A DNA stretch of 64,000 bases from contig NC_135355.1 of assembly GCF_051622035.1 (NCBI RefSeq), positions 39,475,986 to 39,539,985 of the forward strand. The letters are read 5' to 3'. Shown here piece after piece: positions 3,657 through 27,900 of the stretch. The notes below the pieces were generated by a model. That model saw only the letters and a program-made list of their open reading frames with translations. It made no database searches and was not told the origin of the DNA. Every line of letters begins with the position of its first letter. Position 1 is the stretch's first letter. The translations under genes and the position numbers were made by a program. The DNA comes from Arctopsyche grandis. Lineage: Eukaryota > Arthropoda > Insecta > Trichoptera > Hydropsychidae.

Positions 3657-4343
3657 TTATGTTTCTCCAGTGTGATTTTTCATATGAAAGTTCAAGCCAC
3701 AGATGCTTCCAAAATATCTGGAGCATATTTCACATTTGATTTTTGTTTCTATTTTGTAAGATCTTATATGAGCTTTCAGCCCATGATCGCTTACGAAACA
3801 TTTTGGGCACGTTTTACATTTGAATGGTCTTTCACCAACATGATGTTTCATATGAACTTCTAAGTCAACATTGCTCACAGAACACTCCGAGCACGATTTA
3901 CACGAATCGACATGCCATTTCATATGCATTTTGAATGCGTCGTGTTTTATATAGCATTTTGAGCATAGCTTACATTTGTACGGTTTCTCTTCGATGTGAC
4001 GCTTCATATGAATCTTTAATTCGTCATCGATTACGAAAGTTTTCGGGCATTTTTCACATTTGATGGGTGCTTCTCCGGTATGTCGTTTCATGTGTACCTT
4101 CAGCTCGTTAATGCATGCAAAATCTTTTGGACAGACTTTACACTTGAACGGTTTCTCACCCGTGTGACGCCTCATATGAATTTCTAATTCATCACTTTTT
4201 ACGAAATATTTTGGACATATTTCGCATTTGAACGGTGTTTCTCCAGTGTGACGTCTCGTGTGTTCTTTCAAGCCGCGTTTGGTTGCTAAATGTTTCGAAC
4301 ATATTTCACATTTGAAAGGGGCAACAGTTATTCCTATATCCTG
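3657..4343 (-). CDS. C2H2 zinc-finger array, terminal exon
   Basis: Encodes about 228 residues with eight C2H2 fingers joined by HTGE-type linkers; six look complete. Finger 6 has a shortened, altered first half (CKSCSECS). Finger 7 lacks the last zinc ligand (HIRSY where H-x3-H is expected). The reading frame runs into a splice acceptor (TTTATGTTTCAG on the coding strand) at 4,344, so the ATG at 4,382 is probably intronic and this is a 3' terminal exon. Two AGs lie in tandem (CAGCAG), a NAGNAG acceptor, and either use keeps the frame. The entry phase is 0, matching the donor of the ZAD exon at 20,574, so I infer a ZAD-C2H2 transcription factor of about 370 residues with a 16-kb intron. This would be a nuclear DNA-binding protein; its targets are unknown. 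Other exons could exist in between. Confidence 0.8.
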   Translation of the reverse strand, partial: QDIGITVAPFKCEICSKHLATKRGLKEHTRRHTGETPFKCEICPKYFVKSDELEIHMRRHTGEKPFKCKVCPKDFACINELKVHMKRHTGEAPIKCEKCPKTFVIDDELKIHMKRHIEEKPYKCKLCSKCYIKHDAFKMHMKWHVDSCKSCSECSVSNVDLEVHMKHHVGERPFKCKTCPKCFVSDHGLKAHIRSYKIETKIKCEICSRYFGSICGLNFHMKNHTGET

Positions 4344-5140
4344 CTGAAACATAAACAAAAAAATAATTACATAAATATTCAATAATTAATATCGTTAAAT
4401 CTGCATTTTAGTCAAAGTCAAACTGAATACAACATGAAGACTAGCCAGTGGTAACTTCAACACGTTATATCACATATGGCGCTCTAGCAGAAATGGATAG
4501 GATGTGAAATTATATTATAATAACACTGAGCAAGAAATAATTTGTATATAAAATTATTATTATGAATAAAAATACCAATAATTTTATTTTACTACCGCCA
4601 TCTATGTTTAAAACTAAAAACTGGATAAACGTCAGTCACTTTTCAGAAATTCAAATTTCAAACGGGTCTTACACGATATTTTTGCACCATCGTAATGGCG
4701 GAGGATCAATTTATTTAAATAAAAATATAAATAATATTTAATTATTTTGAATAAAAATACCAATAATTTTATTTTACTACCGCCATCTATGTATAAAATT
4801 AATGACTACGAGACGTCACCGAGATTAAAAATTTTCGGACTTGAATCGCCTCTTAAACGATATGTTATCTCTATCGTAATGGCGGAGGATCCATTTACTT
4901 ATATTGATGACCAAAATGAGCAATATGGCAAAGTATGAAAACGATCGGATAAGAGGCAAATTATTACCTGAATTGTAATCGTAAGTGAAACGTAAAGGAG
5001 GTATGTAATAAAAATCACGTTTTTTACTTACCGGAGTGGAGATTAATGAATCTTTACAAAGTTAAGCCCACTGAATTCGAATATGACAATGATTATTGTT
5101 GGTTTTCTCTTTCTCTTGGTTAGTTTTTCATATATCTTAA
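4344..5140. repeat. two partial copies of a dispersed repeat
   Basis: About 4,553-4,715 and 4,742-5,025 are diverged direct copies of one family. Shared blocks are AATACCAATAATTTTATTTT, ACTACCGCCATCTATG and ATCGTAATGGCGGAGGATC. Further copies lie at 62,165-62,430 and, in part, at 52,850-53,010, where they run into an ACACTAG Helitron-type end. They are probably segments of a non-autonomous Helitron family. They lie just inside the inferred ZAD gene intron. Confidence 0.5.
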
Positions 5141-5725
5141 CCCTTTGAATGCTGACCAACGCCGATCGGCGTTTTGCCAACAAGTCCATGGGCCTAAAAA
5201 ACGCCGATACGCGTTATATTTTGAGCATGTACACAGTAAACATGAATACTATCCGCTAAGCCTTTCCAGGTAGCATTGAAAAAAATGCATTGAACATGGG
5301 TCGTGTAATCCATTTGTCAGCGTTTATAAAGACTGGTTTACAATAGAATTTCTGAATTTATAACCATAGCAGAATTTCCCAATGGAAATTCCTAACTGCT
5401 GTGTATTTTAGATTGTGGCTTGGCATTTAGACTGTGAGCGTTACATTTTAACAACAATGAAGAAGATGGAACTAGTTTTGGAAAAATACATTCATTAATA
5501 GACTTATTTTGTTTATTTTATATTGTTGCAAGATATATTAGAGAGTTTGGACACACCTTTACAAAACTCGAAATCCTCGGGGGTAGTTATCTAGGGTTTG
5601 TTTGGATTAACTTCAATTTTTATACCTGCTTTCTATTGGATTTCTAAATAATTCCAATTGGAAATGTTTGCGAAATTTTCAGCGTGGTGGGCTTTCAACA
5701 GGAAAGACGTCAGCACTCAAAGGGT
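5141..5725. mobile_element. piggyBac-like MITE, about 585 bp
   Basis: TTAA at 5,137-5,140 is followed by CCCTTTGAATGCTGACC. The other end reads GTCAGCACTCAAAGGG followed by TTTAA, so TTAA lies at 5,726-5,729. TTAA target sites and CCCTTTG termini are the hallmark of piggyBac-like elements. The ends show an inverted repeat of roughly 16 bp with one mismatch. No transposase frame is present, so it is non-autonomous. Confidence 0.7.
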
Positions 5726-6516
5726 TTAACGAGAGTATGCCAACAAAATCACTGTCATATTCGAAATCAGTGAGTCAAACTTAGTAAAGATTGATTAGTC
5801 TCCTCTCCGGTGATTTTTTGTTGTTGTTCAATGTAATCAACGATTCTGTGCAAATGCAGAGAGAGTTCTCGAATACAAGAGCATAAATTCTTTTTTTTTT
5901 ATTTTATTAATATTAATATAGTCTAAATTGACGACAAAGAATTGTAAATTGGTTTTTGAGCTCTTTTTCCTATTACGCTGTACATATTAACATTATAATA
6001 ATATAATACTATGATTACTAACAAAATTAATTTAAAATTGTAAAATAGAAAATGATCAGTAGATCAGTAGCTATTAAAATAGATATAAGATGTATTGTGA
6101 ACATAATTTAGTAATAATAAAAAGCATTTAAAAATCAAATTCAAATTCACGACAAAACTAAAAAAAAAAAAAACAGTCCTCATTTAATTAAAGACAGAAA
6201 GTATTTGTACACATAAACAACTCGACACATACTATTTTCTAGTAATAAAACAAACGATTTTAATAAATATTTACGACATATATGTATGTACGTACATATG
6301 AATTTATTTATTTCAAAAATTAAAATCAGACCAGAGTGACTTAACAAGTTGCCTCAAAGCGCCATTGCACCCGGAAACATGTTAACAAGAGGCATTAAAA
6401 AAATCACAAAACATAATATATAATAATAATAAGTAAGTTTTGACAATGGTATACTAAATTTTCAACCGTTATTCACGAAACAAAAAGCACTTACATACAA
6501 TGCAGCATATAAAATC
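5726..6516 (+). mobile_element. LINE 3' tail copy and flanking AT-rich DNA
   Basis: About 5,940-6,137 is a close direct copy of 8,521-8,713: both carry GTTTTTGAGCTCTTTTTCC and GAAAATGATCAGTAGATCAG. The downstream copy is attached to a Jockey-like LINE coding remnant, so this one is best read as a 3'-UTR fragment of the same LINE family. The rest of the interval is AT-rich with no recognised feature. Confidence 0.5.
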
Positions 6517-6877
6517 ACGATGCGGTGCAAACGATCGACAAGCGCCAGACAGACTGAACCACAGATTAACTGTACGTGTACCTTATGCGTGCGCACTGCT
6601 CGCACTTACACTAAGCGAAATCTACCCGAAGTCCCGACATACACCTACCCTGTATACGTTATGTTCTCCTGATACTTTAGTTCCGAATTTTGCCTTATTA
6701 AACTCGCCAGAAAGATCCAACTCAATTTTAATAATTGCATCTGTGCACATCGAAAGGTTACTCGTCATCTGATGTGCAATCTATCATTCGTGAAGTCGAG
6801 AATTGCGTTTAAAGCAGCCATCCAGTTAATCTGTAGTTCAGTCTGTCTGGCGCTTGTCGATCGTTTGCACCAAACCC
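6517..6877. mobile_element. hAT-like MITE, 361 bp, 8-bp TSD
   Basis: Flanked by the exact 8-bp direct repeat ATAAAATC (6,509-6,516 and 6,878-6,885). The ends carry a long inverted repeat including GTGCAAACGATCGACAAGCG; one outer tip reads GATGCGG and the other GGGTTTGG. The same family is at 38,722-39,095, with a rearranged piece at 55,554-55,800. An 8-bp duplication fits hAT or P superfamily elements. It starts about 22 bp beyond the stop codon of the FLYWCH-MULE exon at 6,900, so it probably lies in that exon's 3' UTR. Confidence 0.85.
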
Positions 6878-6899
6878 ATAAAATCAATACTATTTCATT

Positions 6900-8249
6900 T
6901 CATTGTAGATTAGCGAGATGTCGCAAATATAATAATTTATTTTCAGTCTGATGGTAAGCACTCACAACACTAGCAACTTCGTTTTTGAGTCTCTTATATT
7001 TTGTGCTTCTAGTTTCTAATTGAGCCGACTTCACGTTCGTGACTGTCAACTTATGGGAAGCGAGGTCGCGTTGTATCCCATCAAACAAATACCAAATGCT
7101 GGGGTTTCTGCAGTTAAATATAGCATTCAAAGTATTGTGGAACCATTCGCAGCAGTTTGACGTTTTGGGTGACATTTCACCGGCCACTGAATAATGATTC
7201 CACGATGTAGTCGGGAATTGTGGACTATTTCCCGCTACACCCTCAATGTACGTCGAGCAAAAGTATGTTACGACTTCTTCATAGCATTCTTCTTCAGGAA
7301 AAGTAGCAGTTAATTGTAAAAATACACTCTTCACGTCTTCGTCTGGCACGAATGCCAGAGCAGGCAGTGATTTCAGGTTTAATTTGACTTCTAAATCATT
7401 TTCAAAGGCAGATTTTAACCCTGCACTGTCTATTTTTCTTATGAGGCTTTGAGTCAAGTGGAAATAGGATCCTTTCACCTCGCTTTGAGGAAAGGCGCTT
7501 CGAGCTGCGTTCATCGCGGCCTTTTCAAAGTCTAGCAAAATATTTTCAGGAGCTAAATCTGGTACCAGCTGCTTCATTATATCAAACATTCGCTCGTAGG
7601 TCGCCGTTGTTTTGTTTGGCAACAAAAAATAGGCAAATGGTGGGTAGGAGTTTCCTACGCGAGCATGCCACGTGTATAATTGGAAAGATATTTGTGGTAC
7701 TTTATCGAAGGTACCATCTCCGAATATCATGTCTTTACGTAGTTCTTTGACTATCTCCGCATCTCCCAGAGCTAAAATCCTGCACGGGTCATTTTTGCCC
7801 GTGTCGTGTAGTACAATTTCTTTGTAATTTTCGGAAATGTCAAAATTAAGCGACAAACGACTGAGTTGTTTGATTTTTAAAAGGGTCCTCGATAGGGAGG
7901 ATTTTTTTGGCAGGTAGGCGAGCGCTTCGTTGCTCACTTCTGATAAGACACTCCCGATCACGTTCTGGGTATTGGCACCGATTACGCGCATGGCTTGGAC
8001 CATCTTCCTCTTGGCGATGTTGGCTTCTATGGTCTGAGGGCAGGAGTCATGGCAATGGGGTCTCGGGTAGCATACGATCACGTTGTTTTCGTTTATCTTC
8101 ATGCTTGAATGGCAGCGCAAGGTGCGACCTTGTCTACATCTCCACGTCGAAACTCCGTTTGAGACGCGGAAGTGGAGATATTCAAAGCCTGAGTAAATCA
8201 ACATTTGTTTCCCCCGCTCGGTGGTTGAATATTTGAAGTCCTCGGCACG
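6900..8249 (-). CDS. FLYWCH-MULE transposase-derived exon
   Basis: Uninterrupted frame of 449 residues from an acceptor (ACTATTTTTCAG, coding strand) at 8,250 to a stop at 6,900-6,902. Counting from the ATG at 8,204, residues about 5-52 form a FLYWCH zinc finger (W21-x-C23, C31, H50-x-H52). Residues about 155-360 form a MULE transposase core with candidate DDE residues D163 (GDGTF), D225 (LLDFEKA) and E353 (CCEWFH). The frame stays open upstream of that ATG for 15 codons (it reads RAEDFKYSTTERGKQ), and those codons complete the FLYWCH start, so I place the exon start at the acceptor, not at the ATG. Entry phase is 0. No terminal inverted repeats were found around it. It may be a recent MULE, or a domesticated gene joined to upstream exons; the ZAD exons 12 kb upstream are candidates. 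Confidence 0.8.
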   Translation of the reverse strand, partial: RAEDFKYSTTERGKQMLIYSGFEYLHFRVSNGVSTWRCRQGRTLRCHSSMKINENNVIVCYPRPHCHDSCPQTIEANIAKRKMVQAMRVIGANTQNVIGSVLSEVSNEALAYLPKKSSLSRTLLKIKQLSRLSLNFDISENYKEIVLHDTGKNDPCRILALGDAEIVKELRKDMIFGDGTFDKVPQISFQLYTWHARVGNSYPPFAYFLLPNKTTATYERMFDIMKQLVPDLAPENILLDFEKAAMNAARSAFPQSEVKGSYFHLTQSLIRKIDSAGLKSAFENDLEVKLNLKSLPALAFVPDEDVKSVFLQLTATFPEEECYEEVVTYFCSTYIEGVAGNSPQFPTTSWNHYSVAGEMSPKTSNCCEWFHNTLNAIFNCRNPSIWYLFDGIQRDLASHKLTVTNVKSAQLETRSTKYKRLKNEVASVVSAYHQTENKLLYLRHLANLQ

Positions 8250-8307
8250 CTGAAAAATAGTGCATAAAATAAGAATTATTAAATCATAATGAATATTCCG
8301 TTTGTTA

Positions 8308-8713
8308 CAGACATTACTAAGAAACTAACCAGTAGATTCTATGACAGAATCACTAATAACCATACTAACACACTTGTGAAGAGTCTCGGTGATTACAACA
8401 AAATGTCTATACCCTTAAGGTATAACACTCAGATTACCTAAACACAATCTGCTTTAGGTCATCGACTTTAAAGAGTCTTTAATTAATATTATGTATTAGA
8501 TGTATTATGAGCATTTATAAGAATTGTAAATAGGTTTTTGAGCTCTTTTTCCTATTATGCTGTACATTAACATTAGAATAATATAATACTATGATTACTA
8601 ACCAAATTAAATAAAATTGTAAAATAGAAAATGATCAGTAGATCAGTAACTATTAAAATAGATATAAGATGTATTGTGAACATAGATTCGTAATAATAAA
8701 AACATTTAAAAAT
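8308..8713 (+). pseudogene. LINE 3' end (Jockey-like) relic
   Basis: From about 8,308 the translation reads a DITKKLTSRFYDRI stretch followed by SLGDYNK, resembling the extreme C-terminus of Jockey/I-like LINE ORF2 proteins (a RFYDR motif, then a short tail). A stop follows near 8,440, then a 3'-UTR-like segment of about 270 bp that is duplicated at 5,940-6,137. This is a 5'-truncated, inactive LINE. The clade call is from motif resemblance only. Confidence 0.5.
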
Positions 8714-9655
8714 TAAAAAAAATTAAAAACAAACCTTACGGTCGGTTCTTTAAATTCTAAACAAATTTATAAAATAATAATAAAATAAATTTATAAAAAC
8801 ACGAAAAATGTGAAAAAAGCTTTAAAAAAGAATGTACATAAGTACAATCTAATATATAATTTCGATTAAGAGACTTTGTATGTAAGTATCTTTGGTTGAG
8901 AACCTCGAAAACAAAACAAAATTTCCATGACGACAATTCAATTGGTTGAATGTTATATTTTTTTCGATTCAAATAAATTCAATAAAAAGCTAGAGGGCGA
9001 CGAACAGCAAAAAGATTTTTCTAAGAAAAAATCCTACTCCGATTTATTAAATTTAATGATTTTTTTTGTTATTTTCATCACATTGATGTTTAAGGGGTCG
9101 AAAAAATCGAACAAGAGTAAACTGCCACTTAAACTTATAGATATGTAATTTTAGTTCAATTCACTCAAAGGTTTCTGAGAAAAACATAAAAACCTCGATT
9201 CTCCAGAGTAAAAGTACTACTTCCGGCTGAGGTAAAAATAATTAAAAAATATTAGGGTATAAAATTTATAATTTCTATTACATGTAAAAAAATTTCAGTC
9301 TGATTCGGTTAGCGGTTTGAGAAATAGTTGAATTCAAAAACTTAAAAAAAGAGGACACCTATTATATAAGGGGAGCTACCATTTCCGGTCAACTTAGAAA
9401 ATTGAAAAAAATTAACTGCGTGTCGATAAAAATTTCACTAACCGATACTAAGTTTCAGTTCGATAGGACGAACGGTGTTCAAAAAAATCCCTAAAATACA
9501 CATGAAAACGTGATCAGTGATCGATTCTGAGTTCGAATCAGTCAAAATCTCGAGTTCAAGTTTTCGCACGATCACAAAACTTCATCTATTGTTACTACAT
9601 ACATAGATAAAAATGGGATTAACCGTATCTCGATTATTCCAGTCCCACTTCTCCA
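8714..9655. repeat. dispersed repeat, Helitron-like left end
   Basis: Near 8,848 a TCTAATATATAATTTCGA block begins, followed by GAGACTTTGTATGTAAG. A similar block is near 47,520, and a TC start at an A/T site suggests a Helitron 5' end. About 9,290-9,550 is repeated in direct orientation at 43,970-44,275, sharing ACCATTTCCGGTCAACTTA and AAGTTTCAGTTCGATAGGAC. Short open frames in this span are not supported as genes. Confidence 0.45.
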
Positions 9656-9975
9656 TCATTGGGATGAAAATTGAAAGTACGCTGTATTGAAAATCGTCAT
9701 ACAAAAATATTGAGACTTGTGGGGAAAATGTGGAATAAAATAATTTGAAATGTTCAATACCTTAGGAATTGGTTTTTGAGGATCGAGCGTAGCTGATGGT
9801 TTGGTGGTGTCCACTTGACTGCTGACGGCGACATTGCAAATTGGGCGACTCTGCAAATTTTTCCGAAAATTGGGTGTTTCTGTCAATCGTAGTATATACT
9901 AGCTTTCAGGTTTAAATTTAAAGGAAACTTAGGATGAAAGAAACATCCAATTTGTTGCATCTGATCAATACCTAC
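9656..9975. other. nothing recognised
   Basis: No coding exon, RNA gene or repeat boundary that I can support. Confidence 0.3.
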
Positions 9976-10250
9976 AACAGTGAGCCACAGTGTAGCTCAC
10001 TATTGCTTACCAGTAGAGAGGTCGTGGGTTCAAGTCCCAGCCAAATACGCTGCTGGCGAGATCTTGTGGTAATTAAAACACAGATCGACCGTCTCCTGCT
10101 GGGATTTTCCGATTTATCTAGCTTAATTGTTATGACGGATCCAATAAATCAGTATCTTCCCCCTCCCCCAGTTTCTAGCAAATTCCAGTTATTATCGTCT
10201 CGAATTTGTTGAATCTTATGAAATGCTACCTACATACTTGTATTTCGAGA
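9976..10250 (+). mobile_element. tRNA-derived SINE
   Basis: The head carries an A-box-like GTGTAGCTCA and, about 35 bp later, a clean B box inside GTGGGTTCAAGTCCCAGCC. No acceptor stem can be folded around these boxes and the sequence runs on into an unrelated body of about 180 bp. It is therefore a tRNA-derived SINE-like repeat, not a functional tRNA gene. Ends are approximate. Confidence 0.5.
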
Positions 10251-10295
10251 GGCTGAACAATTAATTATTAGTGAATTAATACTGAAGCGTATATT

Positions 10296-10920
10296 TAAAT
10301 GAGCCGCCGTTATAATTGGTTTCGAGGATTATCTCCAGGCTTAAGTACAAGTCGGCTAACAATGAGATACCTCCGAATGCACTTAGCGGGGGTAGCGGTA
10401 GCTCGGTCGCATTCCGGTAGAGTTCTCAGAACCCACAGCGATAGCGTGGGACTGACTTCCGTGGCACATATAGTACGTGACCATAACAATAGGTAAACAA
10501 ACGTGGGTAAGATCATCCAACTACCAATTTTGTACCATTTTGTGAAAAAGTGATATTTTTGTTAATACGGTTACGTACACCGCCGAGTAAGTGCAATCGG
10601 ATTAGGCCGAGTAGCATCCCAGAGACTGTGTGACCGTTATAATTGGTTTCAAGGATTATCTCTGGACTAAGTGCAAGTAGGTTAAACAATGGCCACCGAA
10701 TTGGCCGCTATTGGTCCCTTCTCAGAAGTGACCGATACCGTGGGACTGAGTGTCGTGGGAATACATATCCGGGTACATGCCTAAACAATGGGGAAGTAAC
10801 CGGACGTCGAAAATGCCCTGAGAGACCTTTCCTTTATAAGGAGGTACTTATGCGATATCAAGACATTCTGGACGGAGCACTGCCAGTGTGTGTATCTCCT
10901 TAATCACCAATAAATGCTAA
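10296..10920 (+). mobile_element. LTR-spacer-LTR element, damaged copy
   Basis: A partial LTR (10,296-10,500) starts near CCGTTATAATTGG. It is followed by a short spacer containing GTAAGATCATCC and CCATTTTGTGAAAAAG, then a fuller LTR (from about 10,570) with ACCGCCGAGTAAGTGC, a TTATAAGG TATA-like box and an AATAAA near 10,907. The same spacer separates two LTRs at 37,727-38,569, so this layout is a family trait rather than a chance tandem. The spacer is too short to code for proteins. Confidence 0.6.
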
Positions 10921-12259
10921 GTAATAAAAATAAGTACTCATGTACAAACTAATCTAACCATATATGTGTCGCCTTGGGGTAATTTCTATCATGGCGCCTA
11001 TGGTAATAAAATAAAATAACGAGTGAAGTTGTACGTGACATGTCATCACGTTGATCTGACAGCGAATTCCCGTATATCGGTCGAGTCTAGTGGTTCGAAA
11101 TTGCCTCACTTATTTAAATCCGCGAGCGGTACTTCTTGGTTATAAGGGCGCATCCTAGCATCCAGTTTAGGTGAAATTCGTAGACATATAATATTTAGGT
11201 ACGTATAGTAGAATTTTTCGGGAAATGTTTGATGTAACGTCAATCACTGGCTGCATATTTTCAGTTTATGTGTTATAGGGTAAGTAAGTCCACTCACGGA
11301 CATTACAATCACAGATAAATCGCTCACGCGAAATTACGCTCACGGATTTATTAAAATAACGTACAAAAACGTTTTTTTTTTTTACACAAGATTTATTCCA
11401 CAACTCAATTAAACGTATCGAGACGAATTAATACACTATCATATCACAGATAAATAAATAAAAAATATATCCAAACCAGTTTAATCTCAATTTATTCACA
11501 AAGTATAGAGTTTGTTATAAGATTTTTTTAATTCTTCGTAATTGATAAGGATTTTCGTTCAGTTGCAATTATTTTTTTAATTGGTGTTAATTATCAATTC
11601 TTTTACATGTAAAATAATCAATTACATATATAATATTATGTTTTTGTAGTTGATTTATGTTCAATTCATCATCCAAGACTTCGTTTTCTTTTTAATTATT
11701 GTATCAACAGTACTATTATAAAATGATTGTAAGGTTTTTGAAATATGTAAATAGAATACAATAAAATCTATGTTCGGAACGTTTTTAATAAGTTTTCGAA
11801 TCCGATATCGAGACAGGTGTTGTCAACTGACATTTATTTGGTCAACTTACTACAGAAAAGCAAATTTAATAAAAAAAAACGTTGCCTTCACAACAGTAAT
11901 TGATGACGCCTCTGATATTTTTACCGATATAAATGAATTAAAAATATTTTTTGAAGATTTTAGCATATGTGGTTTTCAAGGTAAGTGTATTGTTTAATTT
12001 CAAAACGTGAAACTAAAAAACAAAAAAAAATTAATGAGTGTTGAATTTCAAAGAAATACAATGGAATACAAAAAAAAGCAAAAATTTTGTTTTGAATCAG
12101 TTTTATTTATTCGAAAACAGAACAAAACTAAAAAAATATGTAAGCATTGTTGATAATAAAAAATACATAAATGTAAATGTCAAATTGTACATTTATTAAT
12201 GAATTTTCAATTATTATTTTAATTATAAAATTTTAATCTAATCATATATATGTATAATA
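10921..12259. repeat. AT-rich repeat, inverted copy at 19,080-19,740
   Basis: About 11,380-11,990 is present in opposite orientation at 19,080-19,740, sharing for example AACTCAATTAAACGTATCG, CCAAACCAGTTTAATCTCAA and AAAATCTATGTTCGGAACG in diverged form. The copies are several hundred bp long and differ by point changes and small indels, as expected of old transposons of one family. Around 11,000-11,340 I recognise nothing. Confidence 0.5.
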
Positions 12260-13245
12260 TCACTATTCCGTCTGTCTGTCTGCCTGAGATAACGCTCTCC
12301 GTACTATAATAGTATTTTCGATTCGACGTATATGTACGTCACTTTTAAAACGTATACGAAGATATAATAACAAACTAAAAAAACTTCTATATATACTAAT
12401 CGATGCCAATCTTTCCACTTGGCTGAAAATTCAGCACCATCTATTGAAAATTTATTTAACTAATTAATTAATTAATTAATAAATATTAAATCATATATAT
12501 TTAAAAGGTATTTGAAAAAAATTCGACCGCGTTGGGATCGAACACATGACCGACGACACATTTCTTTTAATTTTTTTATTTAATAACTTAACACTATGAC
12601 GGCCGCTGACTCATATTTGTATCATGTTGGGTGTACAACGCTTACTGGCCGCTAATACATATATAATTCACGGGTCTATCTCACAGGAAGGCAAAGATCG
12701 AAAAATCTTAAGTCGCAAGATCAAAAAAAAAGGGGGGACGGTAAAGGGTACTATGTATACATATATAATATATATATTAATGGTATGCGGTGAAATTATC
12801 TCTCTTTTTGTCATACAGCCTTGTTTAATGTGCGCACGCATGATTCGGGAGGAAAAGCCTGTTCCTCTTGTTCCTGTTGTATCCTGCTCGCGCAAATTAA
12901 GTGAGGATGTACGACGGGGGGAGAGAGACTTTTACCGCACGCCACTGATATACATATATACTAACCGTTTTTCATATGTATGCATGGTACACGACTGCGC
13001 GAACTGTTTCACTCCGCTGATATATGTTTGTATCAAGTTTTCGTCATAAACGAAAACGTGATACAAAATTGTATCATCGGCTACAAACGATTGACGAAAT
13101 AGTTATATACAGTTCGCGCAGTCGTGAATCATATATGTGTCAGCGGCCAGTAAGCGTTGAGCACCCAACATGATACAAATATGAGTCAGCGGCCGTCATA
13201 GTGTTAATATGCCAACACCCATGCGATGATATATCATCAGGTATA
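12260..13245 (+). mobile_element. Helitron (H1), split by a MITE
   Basis: Starts TCACTATTCCGTCTGTC after an A, and ends near CATGCGATGATATATCATC with a decayed terminus (CACCAA in place of CACTAG). The family in this window has a 5' TC, a 3' hairpin CGATGA-TATG-TCATCG, and CTAG followed by T: the Helitron end structure. A piggyBac-like MITE splits it at 12,592-13,203. No helicase frame is present, so it is non-autonomous. It also carries a B-box-like GGGATCGAACACATGACC on the opposite strand. Confidence 0.75.
12592..13203. mobile_element. piggyBac-like MITE, 612 bp, in Helitron H1
   Basis: Flanked by TTAA (12,588-12,591 and 13,204-13,207). Inverted ends begin CACTATGACGGCCGCTGAC and extend for some tens of bp. 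Intact relatives of the host Helitron read TAACTTAATATGCC at this point, which shows the empty site. The interior shares GGAGGAAAAGCCTGTTCCTC and other blocks with the palindrome at 16,935-17,285. No transposase is encoded; the short open frames inside are not credible genes. Confidence 0.85.
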
Positions 13246-13317
13246 ACACCAATATACATTTAACATAACTATTTGACAACTTATTTATGTACTTATTAAC
13301 TATTTTATAACTTAAAA

Positions 13318-14799
13318 CTAAAAATTAAGACACAGGCCCCTTAGATACATTTCTAAATTTGGCCTGTACGCCCAATTGTCTGTCATTTTTATCACTGTTT
13401 CAGCCAAACGCACATATTCCGGCCGATGTTTTCGTTCGAAATATCCTCCGCCAATCGATTCCTCCACCAACTTTTCAGTTTCGGCTTGCAGGCCTTGCAA
13501 GGCCTTTAAGCACCTCCACAAATTTGTAGACTGTGTTCCAATTGTGTGCGACACCTTCATGTGAAATGCTTCGACCTCACAATCGGCCCGACCGTACTGT
13601 TCCAGCGTTCCATCTCGCACGTTCCACATTTTAATGTCTGCCACCCGAGGTTCTCGCCTCACGCCTTCTACGCTCTTTCCAATAAAGCTCTCTTCAAAGT
13701 ACGAAAAAAAGTCTTCTATTCTAGGTTGGATCGCTTCCGTTTGTGCCGTAACCCACGGCTGCATGATCTGACGAAGCTCTTCCCAGCTTTCGACGACGTG
13801 TTCCACGGGAACCAAAGCCAAAGCCGACACCATTTTGAATTTAACGGCGTTTTCAGCACCCTCGACATACAACAGGGACAATCCCAATTCTTGGATTTTA
13901 TCATTCAGATCCTGGCACAGTCTAAAGAAGCAACACGAGACCCGTGCATTCGGCCAGTGCGTTTGAACAGCACCGATGGCTGCTCTTTCGAAGTCGACCA
14001 TTATTCTCACAGGTTCCCATCCCGGAAGAATTGATTTCAGCTGTTCAAAAACCCTCATATATGTCATTTGAGTTTTATCCGGAAGCAGAAAATAAACTAA
14101 CGGTATGGCCTTTCCTGGTCTTTGATCGAGGCCTTCAAGCCTCGTGCCGTATATTGTATACAGCTGGGCGAAGAGTGGTGGAGACGTTTTAAAGGTACCG
14201 TCCATTAAAACTCCTTGGCAACCTCTTAGGAAGTCTACATTCTGTTGCGTGGCAAACATTAAAATTCTCTCTTCGCCGTTGTTCAACGCAGGGCCGGAAT
14301 CCCACATCAAAAATTGCTCCGATCGATTCTGGTTGCCCGTGGTTAGATATTGTGCGGGTATATTGATCTCGTTCCTCGTTGTTGGTGGAGGAGCCTGAGC
14401 TTTACTTCTCTGCCTTTGTATGTTGCGTATTAAGCTTTCGATTTTGGGCAACCTAGCCTTGGCCACGTCGGATGTGGTTATCAACGATGCTTGCAAAACA
14501 TCAGTAGTGACAGCGCCGACAGTGTTCGATGCTATTTCTCGCATATTGTTTTTAATTTGGCGCATCTCACACCTTAAAATATTCGGCAGATGATTATGCT
14601 CCCGCGACAGGTGTAATTCGCGTCTATTGTTTCTGGTAATTGCACGGCCGAAACACTTTGCTTTCTGATCGCACGTCCAATATTCTGTTTCACCGTTTGT
14701 AGCCGATCTGTGACGCAAATAACAATATCCATCTTCGCTCATTAATAGCACGCCATTCCGTTGGGTCTTTTCAAATTTTAAATTTTGCATTGTGTATTT
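13318..14799 (-). CDS. FLYWCH-MULE transposase-derived exon
   Basis: Open frame of 493 residues from a strong acceptor (TTATTTTTTCTTTACAG on the coding strand) at 14,800 down to a stop at 13,318. The first ATG inside the exon is at 14,790. Counting from it, residues about 14-67 are a FLYWCH finger (Y24-L25, W38-x-C40, C46, H65-x-H67). A proline-rich linker with PPPTTR lies near 134. The MULE core has D197 (MDGTF), D266 (VDFERAA) and a third acidic residue near 400 in CEVEAFH. The ATG at 14,826 lies upstream of the acceptor and is probably intronic. Entry phase is 0. It is related to but clearly different from the exon at 6,900, so the two are separate insertions or old paralogues. It may be an active MULE, a recent fossil, or a captured host exon. 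Confidence 0.8.
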   Translation of the reverse strand, partial: KYTMQNLKFEKTQRNGVLLMSEDGYCYLRHRSATNGETEYWTCDQKAKCFGRAITRNNRRELHLSREHNHLPNILRCEMRQIKNNMREIASNTVGAVTTDVLQASLITTSDVAKARLPKIESLIRNIQRQRSKAQAPPPTTRNEINIPAQYLTTGNQNRSEQFLMWDSGPALNNGEERILMFATQQNVDFLRGCQGVLMDGTFKTSPPLFAQLYTIYGTRLEGLDQRPGKAIPLVYFLLPDKTQMTYMRVFEQLKSILPGWEPVRIMVDFERAAIGAVQTHWPNARVSCCFFRLCQDLNDKIQELGLSLLYVEGAENAVKFKMVSALALVPVEHVVESWEELRQIMQPWVTAQTEAIQPRIEDFFSYFEESFIGKSVEGVRREPRVADIKMWNVRDGTLEQYGRADCEVEAFHMKVSHTIGTQSTNLWRCLKALQGLQAETEKLVEESIGGGYFERKHRPEYVRLAETVIKMTDNWAYRPNLEMYLRGLCLNF

Positions 14800-14853
14800 C
14801 TGTAAAGAAAAAATAAATTGTATCAATGAATAAAGTACGTATGGTTTTATATA

Positions 14854-15371
14854 CGGTTGTGGCTATTTGCAGGTACTATATCTGAAAATTATTGGCTATT
14901 TGCAGGTACTATATCTGCGACAGGCGCAAAGCCTTCTGCGCATGCGCGTGAACTGTCACTGTCAGCGTGTTTACTGTTATAAATTTTGTTTTAAATCTCT
15001 TAAAATTTAGTTCGAACTCGTTAAGTGACGTAGAGTAAAAAATATAATCCAAATTAGTTAATATTATTAATTGTTAGAAGACTATTATCATATACAACGT
15101 ATAATACTTATGTACATACAAGTACAAGCCGCGAACTAGCTAAATGATATAAATCTATTATAATAACGTGCGAAATTTATTTGCCTCATGTATAATGAAC
15201 GATTGATTAAACAAGTCTAGCATACATTAAATGTAAGAAATTATAATCGGATTATAAGTGCCCGTGTGCCCGTCACAGATATAGTACCTGCAAATAGCCA
15301 ATAATTCGCAGAAATAGTACCTGCAAATAGCCAATAATTCGCAGATATAGTACTTGCAAATAGCCACAACC
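14854..15371. mobile_element. MITE with subterminal repeats, 518 bp, 8-bp TSD
   Basis: Flanked by TTTATATA (14,846-14,853 and 15,372-15,379). The ends are inverted copies of GGTTGTGGCTATTTGCAGG, continuing to ACTATATCTG. The GGCTATTTGCA-type unit occurs twice at the left end and three times, inverted, at the right end, at about 31-bp spacing. Subterminal repeat arrays of this sort bind transposase in hAT elements. The 8-bp duplication also suggests hAT. No transposase is present. Confidence 0.75.
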
Positions 15372-15679
15372 TTTATATAATAATAACTAGCTGAATCCGG
15401 CATGCCTTGCAATGCCACAATAACGCAAGCAATTCCCGTTCCCGTTCCCATTTGTCAGAAAAACGCAGACACATTTGAAATTATTCAATTGTTTATTTTA
15501 GCCTAACGAGGCAGGTCGCGATGCGAAAACATTTAAAATTATTGCATTGCATTCCCGTTTTTGGCGATTTTTTTTTACAGAAACCATCGCGGACATGCAC
15601 ACAATAACTCTCGTAAGTTTCATCGCAATCGGTTCAATGGTATAGGAACGGATTCGTGACTAACAGACAAACATTGATT
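15372..15679. repeat. dispersed repeat with TTCCCG hexamers
   Basis: About 15,380-15,660 belongs to a family also found at 52,240-52,700 (inverted) and 61,960-62,110. Shared blocks are TTCCCGTTCCCGTTCCC, AACCATCGCGGACATGCAC and GTAAGTTTCATCGCAATCGG. The hexamer run is polymorphic between copies. The class is unknown. Confidence 0.5.
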
Positions 15680-16138
15680 GGTGCTAGTTTATGTAGTATG
15701 CGGTCTACTTGCACATATCCACTTTAGTATGCGATCTACCTTCACGTTTTTACTTTAATATGCGGTCTCACTGTCTAAGTTCTCGCGTGTGACACTGAGA
15801 CTGAATAATACCGACCGTAACAACCTAATCTTATATGAAAAGGGCCAACCTTAACTTAACCTAACCTATCCTGACCCTAAAAATAAATAGGTGTTGGCTG
15901 CTAAGATATTTTTTTTTAAGTTTTATTACATCATTATTTTCACAAAAAAAAAAACATATCTTAGCAGCCAACACCTATTTATTTAAGGGTCAGGATAGGT
16001 TAGTTTGAGTTAAGGTTGGCCCTATTCATTTAAGATTTAGTTAAGTGATATGTATCGTCGTTGATGTATGTACAAATAAAGTTACACGTAAAAAAGGTAG
16101 ATCGCTTTCTAAGGTAGACCGCATACTAAACTAGCACC
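15680..16138. mobile_element. palindromic hAT-like MITE, 459 bp
   Basis: Exact 8-bp duplication CATTGATT at 15,672-15,679 and 16,139-16,146. Termini are inverted GGTGCTAGTTTA, continuing to GTATGCGGTCTAC. An inner long palindrome (about 15,830-16,030) has arms containing CAGCCAACACCTATTT around a short T- and A-rich loop. Confidence 0.8.
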
Positions 16139-16328
16139 CATTGATTTTTATATATGTCACAGTGAAATTATATTTCAAATGAAAATATAAATATTTTCAC
16201 TGACGTTTCAGCGAAATCATAACCAGTTACATTTTCAGGGTTGGTTTTATTAATTTAAGATTAGATTGTTGGGGTTGGTATTATTTAAGGGTTAGGATAG
16301 GTTAGGTTAAGTAAGGGTTGGCCCCATT

Positions 16329-16547
16329 CAGTGCCGGTTTTAGGGGGGGGCTAGGTGGGGCGGCGCCCGAGGGCGCCAAATTATTTAGGGCGCCGCTCGA
16401 TGCGTCAAAGGCGCTTTAAAATTTAAAATTAGAGCGCCAAAAGCCATACAAAAAATTTAGGCCATACAAAATAAAGGCGAATTTTGTTTTCTAAGGGTGT
16501 TTAGAAAAAATTGCCCGAGGGCGCCATTGGGTGTAAGGCCGGCACTG
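16329..16547. mobile_element. hAT MITE, 219 bp
   Basis: Termini CAGTGCCGG and CCGGCACTG, flanked by GCCCCATT and GCCCTATT (7 of 8 bases identical). The uninterrupted target GGCCCTATTCATTT is seen at 16,018-16,031 in a related sequence. The interior is rich in GGCGCC blocks. CAGTG termini with an 8-bp duplication are typical of hAT. Confidence 0.8.
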
Positions 16548-16695
16548 GCCCTATTCATTTAAGATTGGGTTGTTAGGGTTAAATTTATAAAGTTAAAAGT
16601 TGTAAATTCATTGTTTGATACATGAATTCACCGCTTGAATTGGTGAAAATATATTTTCACTTGAAATATGCTTTCACTGTAACATAAACATAGAC

Positions 16696-16934
16696 TAGTG
16701 TTGTACCCGATGACATATCATCGATGAGATGCCTCTCATCTTCAAGAATTATCACATGATTTTGGCGGTTGATTGATCGTTGAAACGATCCGTTTTATTA
16801 TGTAATTAACACTGTTTTATTGAATAATTCTTTTTTAATCGTTTTTCAGTTGTATTTTATTGAAATAAAATTTATGACGACTTATATCTATTTGTTTTAT
16901 CAATATTCCACTTTGTATATTCTATATCGGTCTC
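16696..16934 (-). mobile_element. Helitron 3' end fragment
   Basis: Reads CTAGTGTTGTACCCGATG followed by a CATATCATC hairpin arm: the right end of the Helitron family on the minus strand. The sequence then departs from the family, so the copy is truncated. The rest of the interval is AT-rich. Confidence 0.5.
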
Positions 16935-17285
16935 CGTGACGAGCCAGAATGTTAAATTACAGAAAACACAAATATCGGAAGGCAAAGATCAAAAATCGAA
17001 AGATCTTAAGTCGAAAGATCAAAAAAAAAAGGGTGCATGGTAAACGGTACAACAGGAACAAGAGGAACAGGCTTTTCCTCCCGTATTAATCTGCGCGCGC
17101 AGAATACGGGAGGAAAAGCCTGTTCCTCTTGTTCCTGTTGTGCCCTACTCGCGCAAATTAAGTGAGTATGTACCGTTTACCATGCACCCTTTTTTTTTTG
17201 ATCTTTCGACTTAAGATCTTTCGATTTTCGATCTTTGCCTTCCGATATTTGTGTTTTCTGTAATTTAACATTCTGGCTCGTCACG
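16935..17285. mobile_element. 351-bp near-perfect palindrome (foldback element)
   Basis: The left arm from CGTGACGAGCCAGAATG is matched in inverse at the right end by CATTCTGGCTCGTCACG. Arms of about 160 bp pair almost completely around a centre near 17,096 (CTGCGCGCGCAG). The main asymmetry is a block of about 35 bp on the right side (near CTACTCGCGCAAATTAAG). Blocks shared with the interior of the MITE at 12,592-13,203 show a common ancestry. Confidence 0.8.
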
Positions 17286-17371
17286 TAGACCCATTCTATA
17301 TATGTACATATGTGCATGTTCAATTTATAGAGATCAAAACATATATTATCGAAATTTGACAATATAATATA

Positions 17372-17819
17372 CTAGTGTTGTACCCGATGAAATATCATCG
17401 CATGGGTGTTAGCATATTAAGTTATTAAATAAAAAAAAATTAAAAGAAATGTGTCGTCGGTCATGTGTTCGATCCCCACGCGGTCAAACTTTTTTCAAAT
17501 ACCTTTTAAATATATTTAATTGTTTAATATGAAAAAAAAACCTACCTACCTACCTACATATAAACTATATATGTAAAACACTGATAGAAAAATTAATTAA
17601 TTTTCAATAGATGGCGGCAAATTCTCTACCAAGAGGGAACACTGGCAGCAAATAGTATATATAGAAGTTTTTTCTTTTGCTATTGTATTCGTATATAAGT
17701 TTTGGCAGTGGTTTAGTCGTGACGTATGTATATATGTATGACGAATCGAAACGATTATTATAGTACGGCGAGCGTTATCTCAGACAGACAGACAGACACA
17801 CACACAGACAGAATAGCGA
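17372..17819 (-). mobile_element. Helitron (H2), 448 bp, complete
   Basis: On the minus strand it starts TCGCTATTCTGTCTGTG after an A and ends with the hairpin CGATGAAATATCATCG-type arm, then CAACACTAG before a T. Internal blocks (AGATGGCGGCAAATTCTC, the B-box-like GTTCGATCCCCACG) match the other Helitron copies. Non-autonomous: no Rep/helicase frame. Confidence 0.8.
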
Positions 17820-19079
17820 TATTATATATACACATATGATAAATTATTATATCGTGGATTAAAAAAAATATTATAAAAATGATTAATTGTGGAGATTAAC
17901 TAATTTATTATAATAAAGAAAACATTGAATTTAATAATTTTAAATATTATTTTTTTCATTAGGACTTCAATTTTGCCGTAATTTAAAAAGCAATTTTTTA
18001 ACTTAATTTAAAAAAATTTCGATTGTTATTTTTTTCTCTATGATATTCTATTTCAGCTGCAATATTAGTTTCAACTGCTAGGTTTATTTTTTTATCGATT
18101 TTTGGACATAATTTCAATTCGATTTCAAGTGCAAATCGCATCCGGTTTGGTACACATGCATCCGGAGTGATAAAATAAAGAGAGATAGAAGAAAAATTAT
18201 AAAAAAGTGAACATTGGATAGTTTTTCATCGATGCAATGACACATGTATCTAATTATATAGAATTCAAATTAACTTGTAATGATAAATTTAAAATATTCT
18301 CAGATAAATTATGATCACTGCACTCGTTTGAAAAAGTCAGATGACTTATTTGGACAAATCTGCGGATTTTCAAAAGCTTTTATTTAGTTTGTACTACCGG
18401 TAGAGTACCAAAGGCTTATTTTCGGTCAAATACCGATACCACCGGTATCGGTACTTTCGGTATTGCAATCCCTAGTGACAACAACAGAGTGTATTTACAT
18501 AAGTTTCTATAACACTATACACTCAATAAACTGAAAATAGAAAGCGATTAAATGAGTCTGCCACTCTTAATCGGATACCCAATGAATGAATTAATGTTGA
18601 GATTACACCACATCACCATAAAAAATCTCAAAATGATCAATTAAAAGAAAAATTATATACATACATACATTTATTTAAAAACTGCACTGTCTAAGATGAA
18701 TCCAAGGGCGGTCCAGGTTGTAGATGTGTAGCGGAAAGTCAAGTAGATAAGTCGTGAAGTGATGAATCCAAGGACGGTCCAGATCGTAGTTATTATACGT
18801 AGCGGTCGGTGCAATAGTTAAGAGTCGCGAATCAATAAAAAAGCAGGCCAGATATATGTGAAATGAAATGAAGCAGACGACGGATGATGAATGTCTCAAG
18901 CGAAAGTAGAACTAAGACTGAATGCACTTTACCTATTTTATATACCCAATGTGGAATATAAAATTACATTTACATGTACGAAAGTCTCAATCCCGAAAAC
19001 CAAACAATCAAAGGGATAAGCTCTTTATGTTCATTGACTTCGTATCAAATATTGTTAACTTTTGCATATCGAATTTTGT
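17820..19079. other. AT-rich, short tandem repeat inside
   Basis: Mostly featureless AT-rich DNA. At 18,697-18,785 a block ATGAATCCAAGG-CGGTCCAG occurs twice about 65 bp apart, with shared GTAGATAAGTCGTGAAG context. No credible gene. Confidence 0.35.
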
Positions 19080-19769
19080 ACTTCTTTGATTCAGATGCGG
19101 GCTGTTCGATTGAACATCGTTTATAATCTTTTTTGCTATAGAAAAATAATTTAAATATTTAAAAGTCAATTGACAACACCTGCCTCGATATTCGATTCGT
19201 TTGCGGAGCATTTTTTTAAGCATTACAACTTTTCTAGTTCGTAGAAAAATGTTTTTTAGTTGAAATTTTTTAGTTGAAAACACCTGCCTCGGTATCGGAT
19301 TCGATAACTTATTAAAAACCTTCCGAACATAGATTTTATTGTATTCTATTTACATATTTCAAAAACCTTACGATCATTTCATAATATTACTGTCGATACA
19401 ATAATTAAAAATAAAACGAAGTCTTGGGGATGATGAATTGAACATATGTATGTTATTAAATACAAAAACATAATATTATATAGTTGCGTTGGTTATTTTA
19501 CATATAAAGGAATTTATAATTATCACCAATTTAAAAAAAATACTTGTAACTGAACGAAAATCCTTATTAATACGAAGAATTAAAAAATTCTTATAATAAA
19601 CTCGGTACTTTGTGAATAAATTGAGATTAAACTGGTTTGTATATGTATTTTATTTATTTATCTGTGATAGGATAGTGTATTAATTCATCACGATACGCTT
19701 AATCGAGTTGTGGAATAATTCTTGTATAAAAAAATAACGTTTCTGTACGTTAAACCCTTAACCCTTTAA
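19080..19769. repeat. inverted copy of the 11,380-11,990 repeat
   Basis: See the entry at 10,921-12,259. The two copies face each other and bracket about 7 kb that includes the FLYWCH-MULE exon at 13,318. Both contain the diverged AACTGGTTTGT / CCAAACCAGTTTAATC block and the CCGAACATAGATTTTATTG block. Confidence 0.5.
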
Positions 19770-20290
19770 ACCCTTTGCCTGCGGCAATAAATATAGCGAA
19801 CAAGCCTAATAAATATAGAACTGTACGTGGCACCTTTTTCGTGAATTTGGCAATCGAGTTTTCAACCTTAAATACAGATTTTAATATTTACTCAAGTAAC
19901 CAGATATGTTAATAAACACCTAAAGTATTATTTTAAACAATAAAATACATAATATATCTCGTAGTTTTGGCTTAATTGTCAAATAATCATTCTTCATACA
20001 ATTGAGACGTATCGTCGCCATTGTTCAACAGACGTGACGTCACATAAACGAGGTTTCACTACGGTTCCACAAAAAACTAATTTTGACTGGTATATATTCA
20101 TTTTAAGCAAATTGAATAGATGGCATTCAACTCTCAGTAATATATTCAACCAATTTTGAACCTTAAAATAGTTGAAATAGGCGCATATAAGGCTCAAAAT
20201 CCCGTGCAAAGTTCAGAAATTCTATAGAAGACAGCCGCGCTACAGACTTGTCGCGCAAAGCTTCCATAGAAGACGGCCGCGGGCAAACGG
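19770..20290 (-). mobile_element. piggyBac-like MITE copy A, about 520 bp
   Basis: Flanked by TTAA at 19,766-19,769 and 20,291-20,294. One end is ACCCTTTGCCTGCGG and the other CCGCGGGCAAACGG. Further copies are at 26,550, 27,297 and 35,099. Each carries a perfect palindromic TGACGTCA (CRE-type) motif in its middle. Short open frames in these copies only reflect the shared repeat. Confidence 0.85.
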
Positions 20291-20573
20291 TTAATAATTC
20301 CGTGAGCTTTGTCGCGTGAGCGATTTGTTGAGTGAGTGAAATGACGTTGAGTGTACGGTTCGCGAGCGATTTGTTGCGTGAGTGAAATGTCGCTGAGTGT
20401 AAGGTCCGTGAGCGATTTGTCGTGACACCATAACCAATAAGTACCTAATTTTTGTACAAAAAAAAGTGAGCAGTTTTCATGTTGGGAATTTCTCACGTTG
20501 GTGATTTTCTGTGCGAGATCGATCGTCATTCGAGAGGTAATATTACCGAACCAATAAAAAACATATGTATTAC

Positions 20574-20885
20574 CGTATCATTATTTTCTTCGTTCAATAA
20601 AGGTTCACCAATGTCTGGAGTCGTCTCCTCTGGATTACAACTACTCGGTCGCATTATGCTATCTTCATCATCGACGGGGGGGTTACGTAGCTGCGACTCT
20701 GGTTCGTCCTCCCAAACTAAGTCATCCAGTAAAACTTCTTCCAATTTAATATTCAAACATTTAGACGATTTCTGTCTCGCCTTTACATCACTCTGTGTAC
20801 AGATCTTTTTAAACTGAGTAAACAACGTCAAGTTGCGTTCACACGACAAGCACATTGTATGGGACAGTCCGTCGTGCTTTCTCAC
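20574..20885 (-). CDS. ZAD zinc-finger gene, exon 2
   Basis: The exon runs from an acceptor (TTTACCGTTGCAG, coding strand) to a donor (ACG|GTAATA) and encodes 104 residues in phase 0 at both ends. The start (VRKHDGLSHTMCLSCERNL) supplies the second zinc-ligand pair, C-x2-C, of a ZAD domain, followed by a QFKKIC helix. The rest is an acidic linker (DDLVWEDEPES) typical of the region between ZAD and DNA-binding fingers. The open frame continues past the donor for 16 codons (to 20,526), so readthrough without splicing would give a short protein. The downstream partner is inferred to be one or more of the same-strand phase-0 exons at 14,799, 8,249 and 4,343. Confidence 0.75.
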
Positions 20886-20965
20886 CTGCAACGGTAAATA
20901 AATCGGGAATAATAGAATCTAATCGGAACATATTATAACAGATTAGATTTAGGAGAGTGTCCGAC

Positions 20966-21079
20966 TTTTAGCTGACAGCAGTTCGAGATGCGTTCCTGCA
21001 ATTCCAGAGATTCAGAACTACCGTAGATGGGAATGCTAGATTCATCTGGTACCGGACACAGGCAAAGCCGGCACGTCAT
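20966..21079 (-). CDS. ZAD zinc-finger gene, first coding exon
   Basis: ATG at 21,077-21,079 is the first one after an in-frame upstream TAA. It gives 38 residues starting MTCRLCLCP and containing IPIYG and LQERISNCCQLK. These are the first zinc-ligand pair (C3, C6) and the first helix of a ZAD domain, a dimerisation module found in arthropod C2H2 transcription factors. Joined in phase 0 to the next exon it completes the ZAD (two C-x2-C pairs about 48 residues apart). The donor would be AAA|GTCGGA, which is weak at +3 to +5, so the exact boundary is uncertain. The exon is too short to stand out as a long open frame. Confidence 0.7.
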
Positions 21080-21870: not shown

Positions 21871-21891
21871 TAAGAGGTTTTTATTTATCAT

Positions 21892-22389: not shown

Positions 22390-22693
22390 TAATATATTAT
22401 ATATAATATCACTATTCTGTATGTCTGTCTGTCTGAGATAACGCTCGCCGTACTATATTAGTCGTTTCGATTCGACATACATATGTACGTCACAGCTAAA
22501 CCACTGCCAAAACGTATACGAATATGTGTATGTAATAACAAAAGAAAAAACTTCTATATATACTGTTTGTTACCAATGGTTTCTCTAGCCATATAGACAG
22601 CGCTAAGTCTCTGAGCGTTTACCGCCATCTATTAAAAATGTATTTAATTAATTAATTTTACTATTGGTGTTTTATATTGTTTATATGTAGATA

Positions 22694-27802: not shown

Positions 27803-27900
27803 TTAACAACTAAAACACAGACGAACCGGTCTATAGACCCATGGAGACTGGTTGTGTAGAAAACCTTCACGACTAAATCAGTCCCCATACATACATATGA

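Follow-up and report, generated by a model that had tools for sequence, protein, structure and literature searches.

Introduction

The described systems closest to the locus analysed here are genes with alternative 3' exons, such as mod(mdg4) and lola, and the host-transposase fusion genes of vertebrates, KRAB fusions included, which arise by transposase capture. Our locus lies in a stretch of 64,000 nucleotides of the trichopteran Arctopsyche grandis (C1:39,475,986-39,539,985; hereafter the window). It is a ZAD gene with C2H2 fingers whose second intron holds two exons, which we call A and B, that each encode a FLYWCH finger and a MULE transposase core (order from 5' to 3': ZAD, A, B and C2H2, all on the minus strand). 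On balance, and by a small degree, we favour the view that the window encodes a ZAD-C2H2 gene with at least one alternative ZAD-FLYWCH-MULE product, made with B and possibly also with A.

ZAD is a dimerisation domain, and few regulator families have expanded as much in insects as the ZAD genes. New DNA-binding specificity in these genes is usually sought in their C2H2 fingers. The base gene of the window is of the same kind as other ZAD-ZNF genes (zf-AD and a C2H2 array in frame, in a local ZAD cluster), but differs from them in having transposase exons between ZAD and the fingers. With mod(mdg4) and lola it shares one 5' part followed by several phase-matched DNA-binding 3' exons, FLYWCH included, although it has only three such exons, of which two are full-length transposases, and its common part is ZAD instead of BTB. 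With the vertebrate captures it shares a host regulatory domain that would be spliced to a transposase-derived DNA-binding exon; here ZAD would be the host domain and a FLYWCH MULE the source of the transposase, and the window has retained the original C2H2 exon. In both comparisons, our side is read from sequence alone. Passages of one source mention both Pita, as an example of a ZAD-ZNF protein, and Mod(mdg4), with its BTB and FLYWCH domains (PMC5094011).

Phantom and Muta are FLYWCH-bearing MULE transposons of insects, according to parts of two reports (PMC6446971, PMC5225508). Muta1 and Phantom resemble A and B in their N-terminal FLYWCH and in a MULE core with D-D-E, C/H and W positions, and they resemble the genome relatives of A and B in their long terminal repeats and target duplications of 9-10 bp. 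Unlike them, A and B are single-copy in our searches, A is without the essential His, and B is without the Cys of the CxxH motif and without a start codon. FLYWCH is listed among transposon-derived factors in Metazoa in a study whose main text does not contain the word ZAD (PMC10027918), and a word search of the main text of a screen for transposon-domain fusions returned none of zf-AD, ZAD, MULE and FLYWCH (PMC12062965). We searched the literature, mostly outside subscription papers, for ZAD with FLYWCH or a transposase and for transposase capture, and found no such fusion. The mechanism proposed here is that of host-transposase fusion, with ZAD-ZNF as the base family and a Phantom/Muta MULE as the captured part.

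Organisation of the ZAD gene and its candidate 3' exons

We searched the genome (475.7 Mb in 189 contigs), and refer to its contigs by the labels C1 to C13 and to the loci read in context by L-numbers (L008 to L030). The ZAD is encoded by exon 1 (20,966-21,079, minus strand; MTCRLCLC...CCQLK) and exon 2 (20,574-20,885, minus strand). When these are joined, zf-AD scores 48.4 bits (cut-off 28), whereas exon 2 by itself scores 19.5 bits and remains under the cut-off. A sequence-only reading of the window had placed a phase-0 donor at the end of exon 2 and three terminal exons of the same strand and phase behind it, with acceptors at 14,799, 8,249 and 4,343. This layout holds. Exon 2 ends in GATACG/GTAATAC (the slash marks the splice junction), and each of the three acceptors leads in phase 0 into an unbroken frame. 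Exon A (13,318-14,799, minus strand; acceptor TTTACAG/AAATACACAATG) has 493 codons and a stop, and keeps its ATG and the DDE residues, with C..R at the CxxH motif. Exon B (6,900-8,249, minus strand; acceptor TTTTTCAG/CGTGCC) has 449 codons and a stop, with Glu where its relatives start and S..H at the CxxH motif. The C2H2 terminal exon (3,657-4,343, minus strand; acceptor TTTCAG/CAGGATAT) has 228 codons and a stop. In Pfam, both FLYWCH and MULE are over the curated cut-off in A and in B, C2H2 fingers are found in the third downstream exon, and BTB is found in none of the 15 window frames or models scanned.

The locus thus holds three terminal DNA-binding exons, all in phase 0, to which the ZAD donor could be joined; the product lengths predicted earlier (370, 591 and 635 residues) follow from the exons found. 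By a splice-site matrix of our own making, the three acceptors (A, B and C2H2) fall at percentiles 99.9, 95.1 and 99.5 among 2,860 minus-strand AGs, and the donor of ZAD exon 2 at percentile 94.3 among 3,618 GTs.

A paralog points to ZAD-C2H2 as the probable ancestral form

ZAD exon 2 is one of five matches, itself included, on C1 at 39.447-39.497 Mb, four of which are on the same strand. The nearest paralog, L023, lies ~23 kb away and is 74% identical. Its ZAD donor is the same as in the window, and ahead of its fingers stands an acceptor homologous to that of the C2H2 exon, which supports the proposed ZAD-to-C2H2 splicing of the window gene. The intron between ZAD and C2H2 measures 994 bp in L023 versus 16,230 bp in the window, and the two introns have in common only ~125 bp ahead of the C2H2 acceptor and a dispersed repeat of 530 bp. 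A and B are absent from L023, as expected if they were inserted later. We computed the ratio of nonsynonymous to synonymous substitution rates (dN/dS) by the Nei-Gojobori method with our own script, with bootstrap ranges in brackets. Between the window gene and L023 it is 0.44 (0.24-0.90) for ZAD and 0.28 (0.18-0.43) for C2H2, and by this measure both parts are under constraint. The structure of the paralog and this constraint indicate that the gene most likely began as ZAD-C2H2, and that A and B sit in an intron that grew.

The same comparison bears on whether the window gene is instead a dying paralog, with a weakened first donor and shortened fingers, in which the inserted exons would be irrelevant. 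The donor of exon 1 is AAA/GTCGGA in the window and has GTGAGA in L023, and the finger exon, counted from its acceptor, encodes 228 residues against 368 in L023, which is not what one sees in an untroubled gene. However, all ZAD and C2H2 frames are open, their dN/dS values are those given above, and finger-array length varies normally in ZAD-C2H2 families. We regard decay of the whole gene as improbable.

Exon B lacks the start codon of its relatives

Three copies on C6 (3.29, 3.34 and 3.60 Mb), nearly identical to one another, match B at 63% identity, and a further copy, on C13, matches it at ~50%. In the three C6 copies the acceptor is followed by TTTACAATG, whereas the equivalent in B is CGTGCCGAG: Met has been replaced by Glu, while acceptor and frame are kept. 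Since, in addition, the first Met of B falls within the FLYWCH finger, translation of B cannot begin where that of the transposase does, and a coding exon further upstream would be the straightforward reading. As other candidates for this exon, we scanned seven minus-strand frames of at least 80 codons, of which six lie between B and ZAD and the seventh lies upstream of ZAD (21,630-21,884); none has a Pfam domain over the cut-off. We therefore favour a predicted ZAD-to-B junction, as B lacks the start codon of its relatives; a ZAD-to-A junction is only possible, because A keeps its ATG. The idea that a ZAD gene can acquire a 3' exon from a transposase is supported, in terms of gene structure, by the recurrence of the arrangement described below. 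Most likely, the window gene is in the course of gaining alternative transposase-derived 3' exons, with B as the better candidate. The dN/dS of B with the C6 copies is 0.26 (0.20-0.35).

We doubt that the three C6 copies (L028, L029 and L030, at 3.29, 3.60 and 3.34 Mb) are a mobile family: they lie in a ZAD cluster, with a same-strand ZAD exon ~6-8 kb downstream, and their likeness continues through the flanks (4.3 kb read). They look like a segmental duplication. They differ at 1-2 of 1,356 sites in the frame versus 27-36 of ~1,440-1,475 sites in the 5' flank (the flanks differ by ~2%). Synonymous sites are depleted too (P 0.0015-0.0043), which points to homogenisation and not to amino-acid selection alone, so that we do not count these copies as clean evidence of selection. 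The C13 copy (L022, C13:5,418,500-5,428,499) has a B-like transposase between inverted repeats of 799 bp that are 99% identical, and seems to be a young element whose reading frame is interrupted.

Similar arrangements in other ZAD genes

Recurrence in other ZAD genes is, at the level of predicted gene structure, the best support for capture. In L021 (C6:3,092,500-3,102,499), ZAD exons 1 and 2, a linker of 219 bases and a FLYWCH-MULE exon follow one another on one strand (7,954-7,841, 7,761-7,540, 7,387-7,169 and 5,833-4,388 in locus coordinates, minus strand). All junctions are GT-AG (donors GAG/GTACGT in ZAD exon 2 and TTG/GTAAGC in the linker) and, like the putative ZAD-to-A and ZAD-to-B junctions of the window, are compatible at phase 0. 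The joined model has 667 residues without a stop, with zf-AD at 48.6, FLYWCH at 38.2 and MULE at 58.6 bits, all over cut-off, and the ATG of its FLYWCH-MULE exon has become AGG. By eye, the linker is similar to the beginning of the C2H2 exon in related genes but has no fingers; farther downstream, the same strand carries a C2H2 exon. L021 seems to represent a later stage, with the finger array replaced.

A second case is L015 (C9:7,533,000-7,542,999), where ZAD exon 2 is followed downstream on the same strand by a FLYWCH-MULE exon. Beyond this exon comes another ZAD gene, which is followed by FLYWCH-type matches at C9:7,530,163 and 7,528,360 (known by position only). The transposase exons of L015 and L021 share ~2.1 kb at 81% identity, as well as tandem-like copies behind them; the loci are otherwise alike only in short dispersed stretches, and so look like separate insertions. 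Between these two exons dN/dS is 0.46 (0.35-0.62). This value, the intact frames and the start loss in B and L021 would fit selection on the transposase exons after capture, but part of this signal may belong to the mobile phase. Separately, ZAD exon 2 of L015 runs into a frame of 1,200 codons, mostly degenerate tandem repeats (6305-9904, minus strand).

We then compared the positions of ZAD and MULE matches across the genome. Three ZAD searches, each giving the best 150 of 843-989 candidates, yielded at least 382 distinct ZAD exons, and 60 MULE matches were classed as 13 young A-type copies and 47 others; the expected co-localisation was obtained by jittering positions by 200 kb with random strand. 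A same-strand ZAD lies within 10 kb upstream of 6 of the 47 non-young matches, against 1.96 expected (P 0.0075, with the at least 382 ZADs), and, among the ZADs listed, within 15 kb upstream of none of the 13 young copies. Opposite-strand ZADs within 10 kb of the 47 number two upstream and none downstream. Counted by locus, the strands agree in 8 of 9 cases (one-sided sign P 0.02, the loci having been grouped after the list was seen); among the eight, C6:3.097 has a ZAD on the opposite strand as well, at a distance of 9.1 kb. For the co-localised loci at C12:22.70, C11:1.654, C6:3.03, C6:3.06 and C6:5.72 Mb, the evidence is positional only. A simple pattern for the ZAD exon-2 motif, which missed the exon of L021, found none in the stretches read of L013, L014, L016-L019 (40 kb) and L022.

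Transposition residues and the acceptor of the transposase exons

Transposition of Muta1 requires D214, D283, E419, H307 and W401, as given in part of its description (PMC5225508). By alignment, A keeps D200, D269, W392 and E410 and has R293 at the position of the essential His. In B, the residues D, D, H, W and E are all present, but Ser replaces the Cys of CxxH, a change shared with its C6 relatives; this Cys is not among the residues shown to be needed in the section on Muta1 (PMC5225508). All six transposition positions are kept in L010, a young transposon, and in L013 and L014. The zinc ligands of FLYWCH are kept in 11 of the 12 aligned sequences, A and B included, L014 being without the domain. 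DNA binding would thus be retained wherever the finger is present, whereas residues for transposition appear hit in A, less clearly in B, and not in L015 or L021. Among solved structures, sequence matches were to FLYWCH1 (weak) and one other at E 0.89 for A, and to FLYWCH1 only for B.

Three tandem FLYWCH-MULE frames on one strand of C9 (L016, L017 and L018-L019, at 4.114, 4.125 and 4.139 Mb) are intact and 68-94% identical. In all three the second catalytic Asp is replaced by Asn, and in one Glu is also replaced by Lys. Their dN/dS is 0.74 (0.56-1.02) for L016 with L018-L019 and 0.40 (0.24-0.70) for L017 with L018-L019.

The acceptor stands next to the ATG in the transposon copies too. The distance between them is 0 bases in L010, 3 in L015, L016, L017 and L018-L019, 6 in L020 and L022, and 9 in A and L013. 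It is a multiple of three in 9 of 9 loci with a start codon, which represent three clades and not nine independent cases. Because such exons carry a phase-0 acceptor of their own, they would fit any phase-0 donor.

Exon A and its transposon kin

A has a single match at 100% in the genome. The next are ~60% identical, and ten of these span ~490 residues. Among these ten, one is single-copy and diverged (C9:7.79 Mb, L008/L013); of the remaining nine, the six compared are 98.6-99.8% alike over 3.3-4.5 kb. The four young kin read with 10 kb of context (L009-L012) have long inverted arms, which in L009 consist of 197-bp tandem repeats, and the elements end in GGTTACACGACAATTGG and GGGGACGCGACAATTGG. 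Target duplications were seen by eye in both copies checked: 9 bp (CTCTCTGCT) in L012, and 9 or 10 bp (ATCGATTTG, with one base ambiguous) in L011. By these features, the nearest kin of A are mostly young transposons. The dN/dS of A with L013 is 0.22 (0.16-0.30).

A is itself flanked by inverted arms of a Phantom/Muta-like terminal-repeat family, 88% identical to each other over 484 columns. The left arm (11,291-11,828, plus strand) is without its outermost part. The right arm (19,272-20,429, minus strand), broken by a repeat at 19,765-20,297, has at 20,429 the terminus GGTGTCACGACAAAT, a close match to the end of the young transposons. The arm family is dispersed, with at least 62 matches listed at 73-100% identity, and its ends read GGTGTCACGAC.... 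The arms could be two separate insertions and not A's own. We rejected them as proof of a complete element around A, given the dispersed family, the absent left end and the missing target duplication; none of 8-10 bp was seen by eye at the arm ends, a comparison to which the lost left terminus gives little power. Two frames inside the arms (11,755-11,994, plus strand, and 19,011-19,349, minus strand) were scanned for a second protein, and neither has a Pfam family over cut-off. On the assumption that the arms are A's own, we simulated neutral decay of A with an age derived from arm divergence and 6 gap openings (20,000 runs). The frame stayed open in 4 of 20,000 copies at that age, in 173 at half and in 1,898 at a quarter of it.

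Weighing capture against old transposon copies

Exon positions, phases, intact frames, the start loss in B, the residue losses, the paralog base gene and the L021 model are directly established. Several observations nonetheless weigh against a captured transposase exon in the window. Most of the phase agreement of A and B comes with the transposon and is not independent evidence, which weakens the argument from phase made in the sequence-only reading. The loss of transposition residues is not general, since all six positions are also kept in the ZAD-linked L015 and L021. The excess of same-strand upstream ZADs fades at shorter range (3 against 1.06 expected within 5 kb, P 0.078; 2 against 0.69 within 3 kb, P 0.149), and 7 of the 47 non-young MULEs have a same-strand ZAD within 10 kb downstream, so that part of the signal reflects MULEs sitting in same-strand ZAD clusters. 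The dN/dS values against diverged transposon kin include selection during the mobile phase. A keeps its ATG and could have a leader exon of its own. Finally, the donor of ZAD exon 1 (20,960-20,966) ranks at percentile 71.7 with the same matrix, and may lower the output of the window gene.

Alternatively, A and B could simply be old intronic transposon copies, with frames open by chance or recent arrival and with their own promoter and a non-coding leader, which the host splices past. A lies between arms of a transposon family, the genome relatives have the terminal repeats and target duplications of true transposons, and the acceptor beside the start codon is theirs too. In L013, an in-frame TGA stands between acceptor and ATG, so that this copy, at least, must use a non-coding leader. 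Yet B, with its first Met where it is, would yield by itself no product with a complete FLYWCH; the L021 fusion model matches the arrangement and is GT-AG throughout; and, if the arms are A's own, a neutral frame as open as that of A was rare in the simulation. We consider this explanation unlikely, though a serious one.

A division between the two exons, which is a special case of the reading that we favour, would make B a 3' exon of the ZAD gene and A a separate transposase gene, immobile and with a leader of its own. It fits the ATG and strong acceptor of A and the missing ATG of B. On the other hand, the spacer between the acceptor and the ATG of A (KYT) is open and in frame, so that A may be fused as well. 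We give this division a still lower probability, in the order of one chance among a few.

A possible route of capture

If the ZAD gene has indeed gained a transposase-derived 3' exon, a simple route can be proposed, for which we infer splicing at the window locus, translation and the molecular role of the product. MULEs of the Phantom/Muta type would have invaded the second intron of a ZAD-C2H2 gene in sense direction. Their transposase exons would have brought along a phase-0 acceptor, situated immediately before the start codon, and the phase-0 donor of ZAD, normally joined to C2H2, would splice to them. In the resulting fusion, ZAD would provide dimerisation, FLYWCH would provide DNA binding, and the altered transposase core might add further contacts to DNA or protein. 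FLYWCH would direct the product to sites related to old transposon ends, where other transposase-derived regulators also act.

We tentatively extend this to other ZAD genes, while putting the chances of the wider proposal somewhat below even: Phantom and Muta would be ready-made exon modules, captured repeatedly by ZAD genes through the matching phase 0, first as alternative 3' exons and then, as on C6, in place of the fingers. If so, this would be an insect counterpart of vertebrate transposase capture and a growing class of ZAD-FLYWCH-MULE regulators, which may bind the ends of their parent transposons. One genome would then hold possible stages of the process, namely young mobile copies, intronic copies, start-less copies and a copy that seemingly took the place of the fingers. 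The recurrence would have a simple mechanical reason, a matching splice phase built into both partners.

Repeats and neighbouring frames

Two copies of a very abundant short repeat (40 scored of 1,362 candidates) lie upstream (8,519-8,736) and downstream (5,937-6,159) of B, and its abundance led us to reject these direct repeats as long terminal repeats of an element around B. A dispersed repeat with inverted ends (6,519-6,879) stands just 3' of the stop of B, with another copy at 38,720-39,093. About 55 bp upstream of the acceptor of A is an inverted-repeat insertion resembling a miniature inverted-repeat transposable element (14,855-15,371), with 9-bp flanks that are identical by eye at 8 of 9 positions. 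The repeat of ~530 bp that breaks the right arm (19,765-20,297) has TTAA at its ends by eye, and we take it to be piggyBac-like. It has three more copies in the window (26,546-27,062, 27,291-27,809 and 35,093-35,613), 92-93% identical to the first, and a further one, 94% identical, in the intron of L023. A search of viral contigs for relatives of A and B gave no locus, one match being reported without one.

Elsewhere in the genome, on C12, a ZAD exon (6,833,168, plus strand) has ~1.3 kb behind it, in the same orientation, a frame of 173 codons with a FLYWCH match (6,834,703), both known by position only. On C11, 116 of the best 150 FLYWCH matches are packed into ~310 kb (18,541,353-18,852,530), on both strands and mostly in short open frames, which might be a very large alternative-exon locus of the mod(mdg4) kind. 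Within the window, a long open frame near the ZAD gene (22,691-24,073, plus strand) encodes a reverse transcriptase domain (143 bits) and is probably a long interspersed element, and an open frame of the Got1/Sft2 family (58.4 bits; 33,936-34,361, plus strand) is likely a GOLT1 gene.

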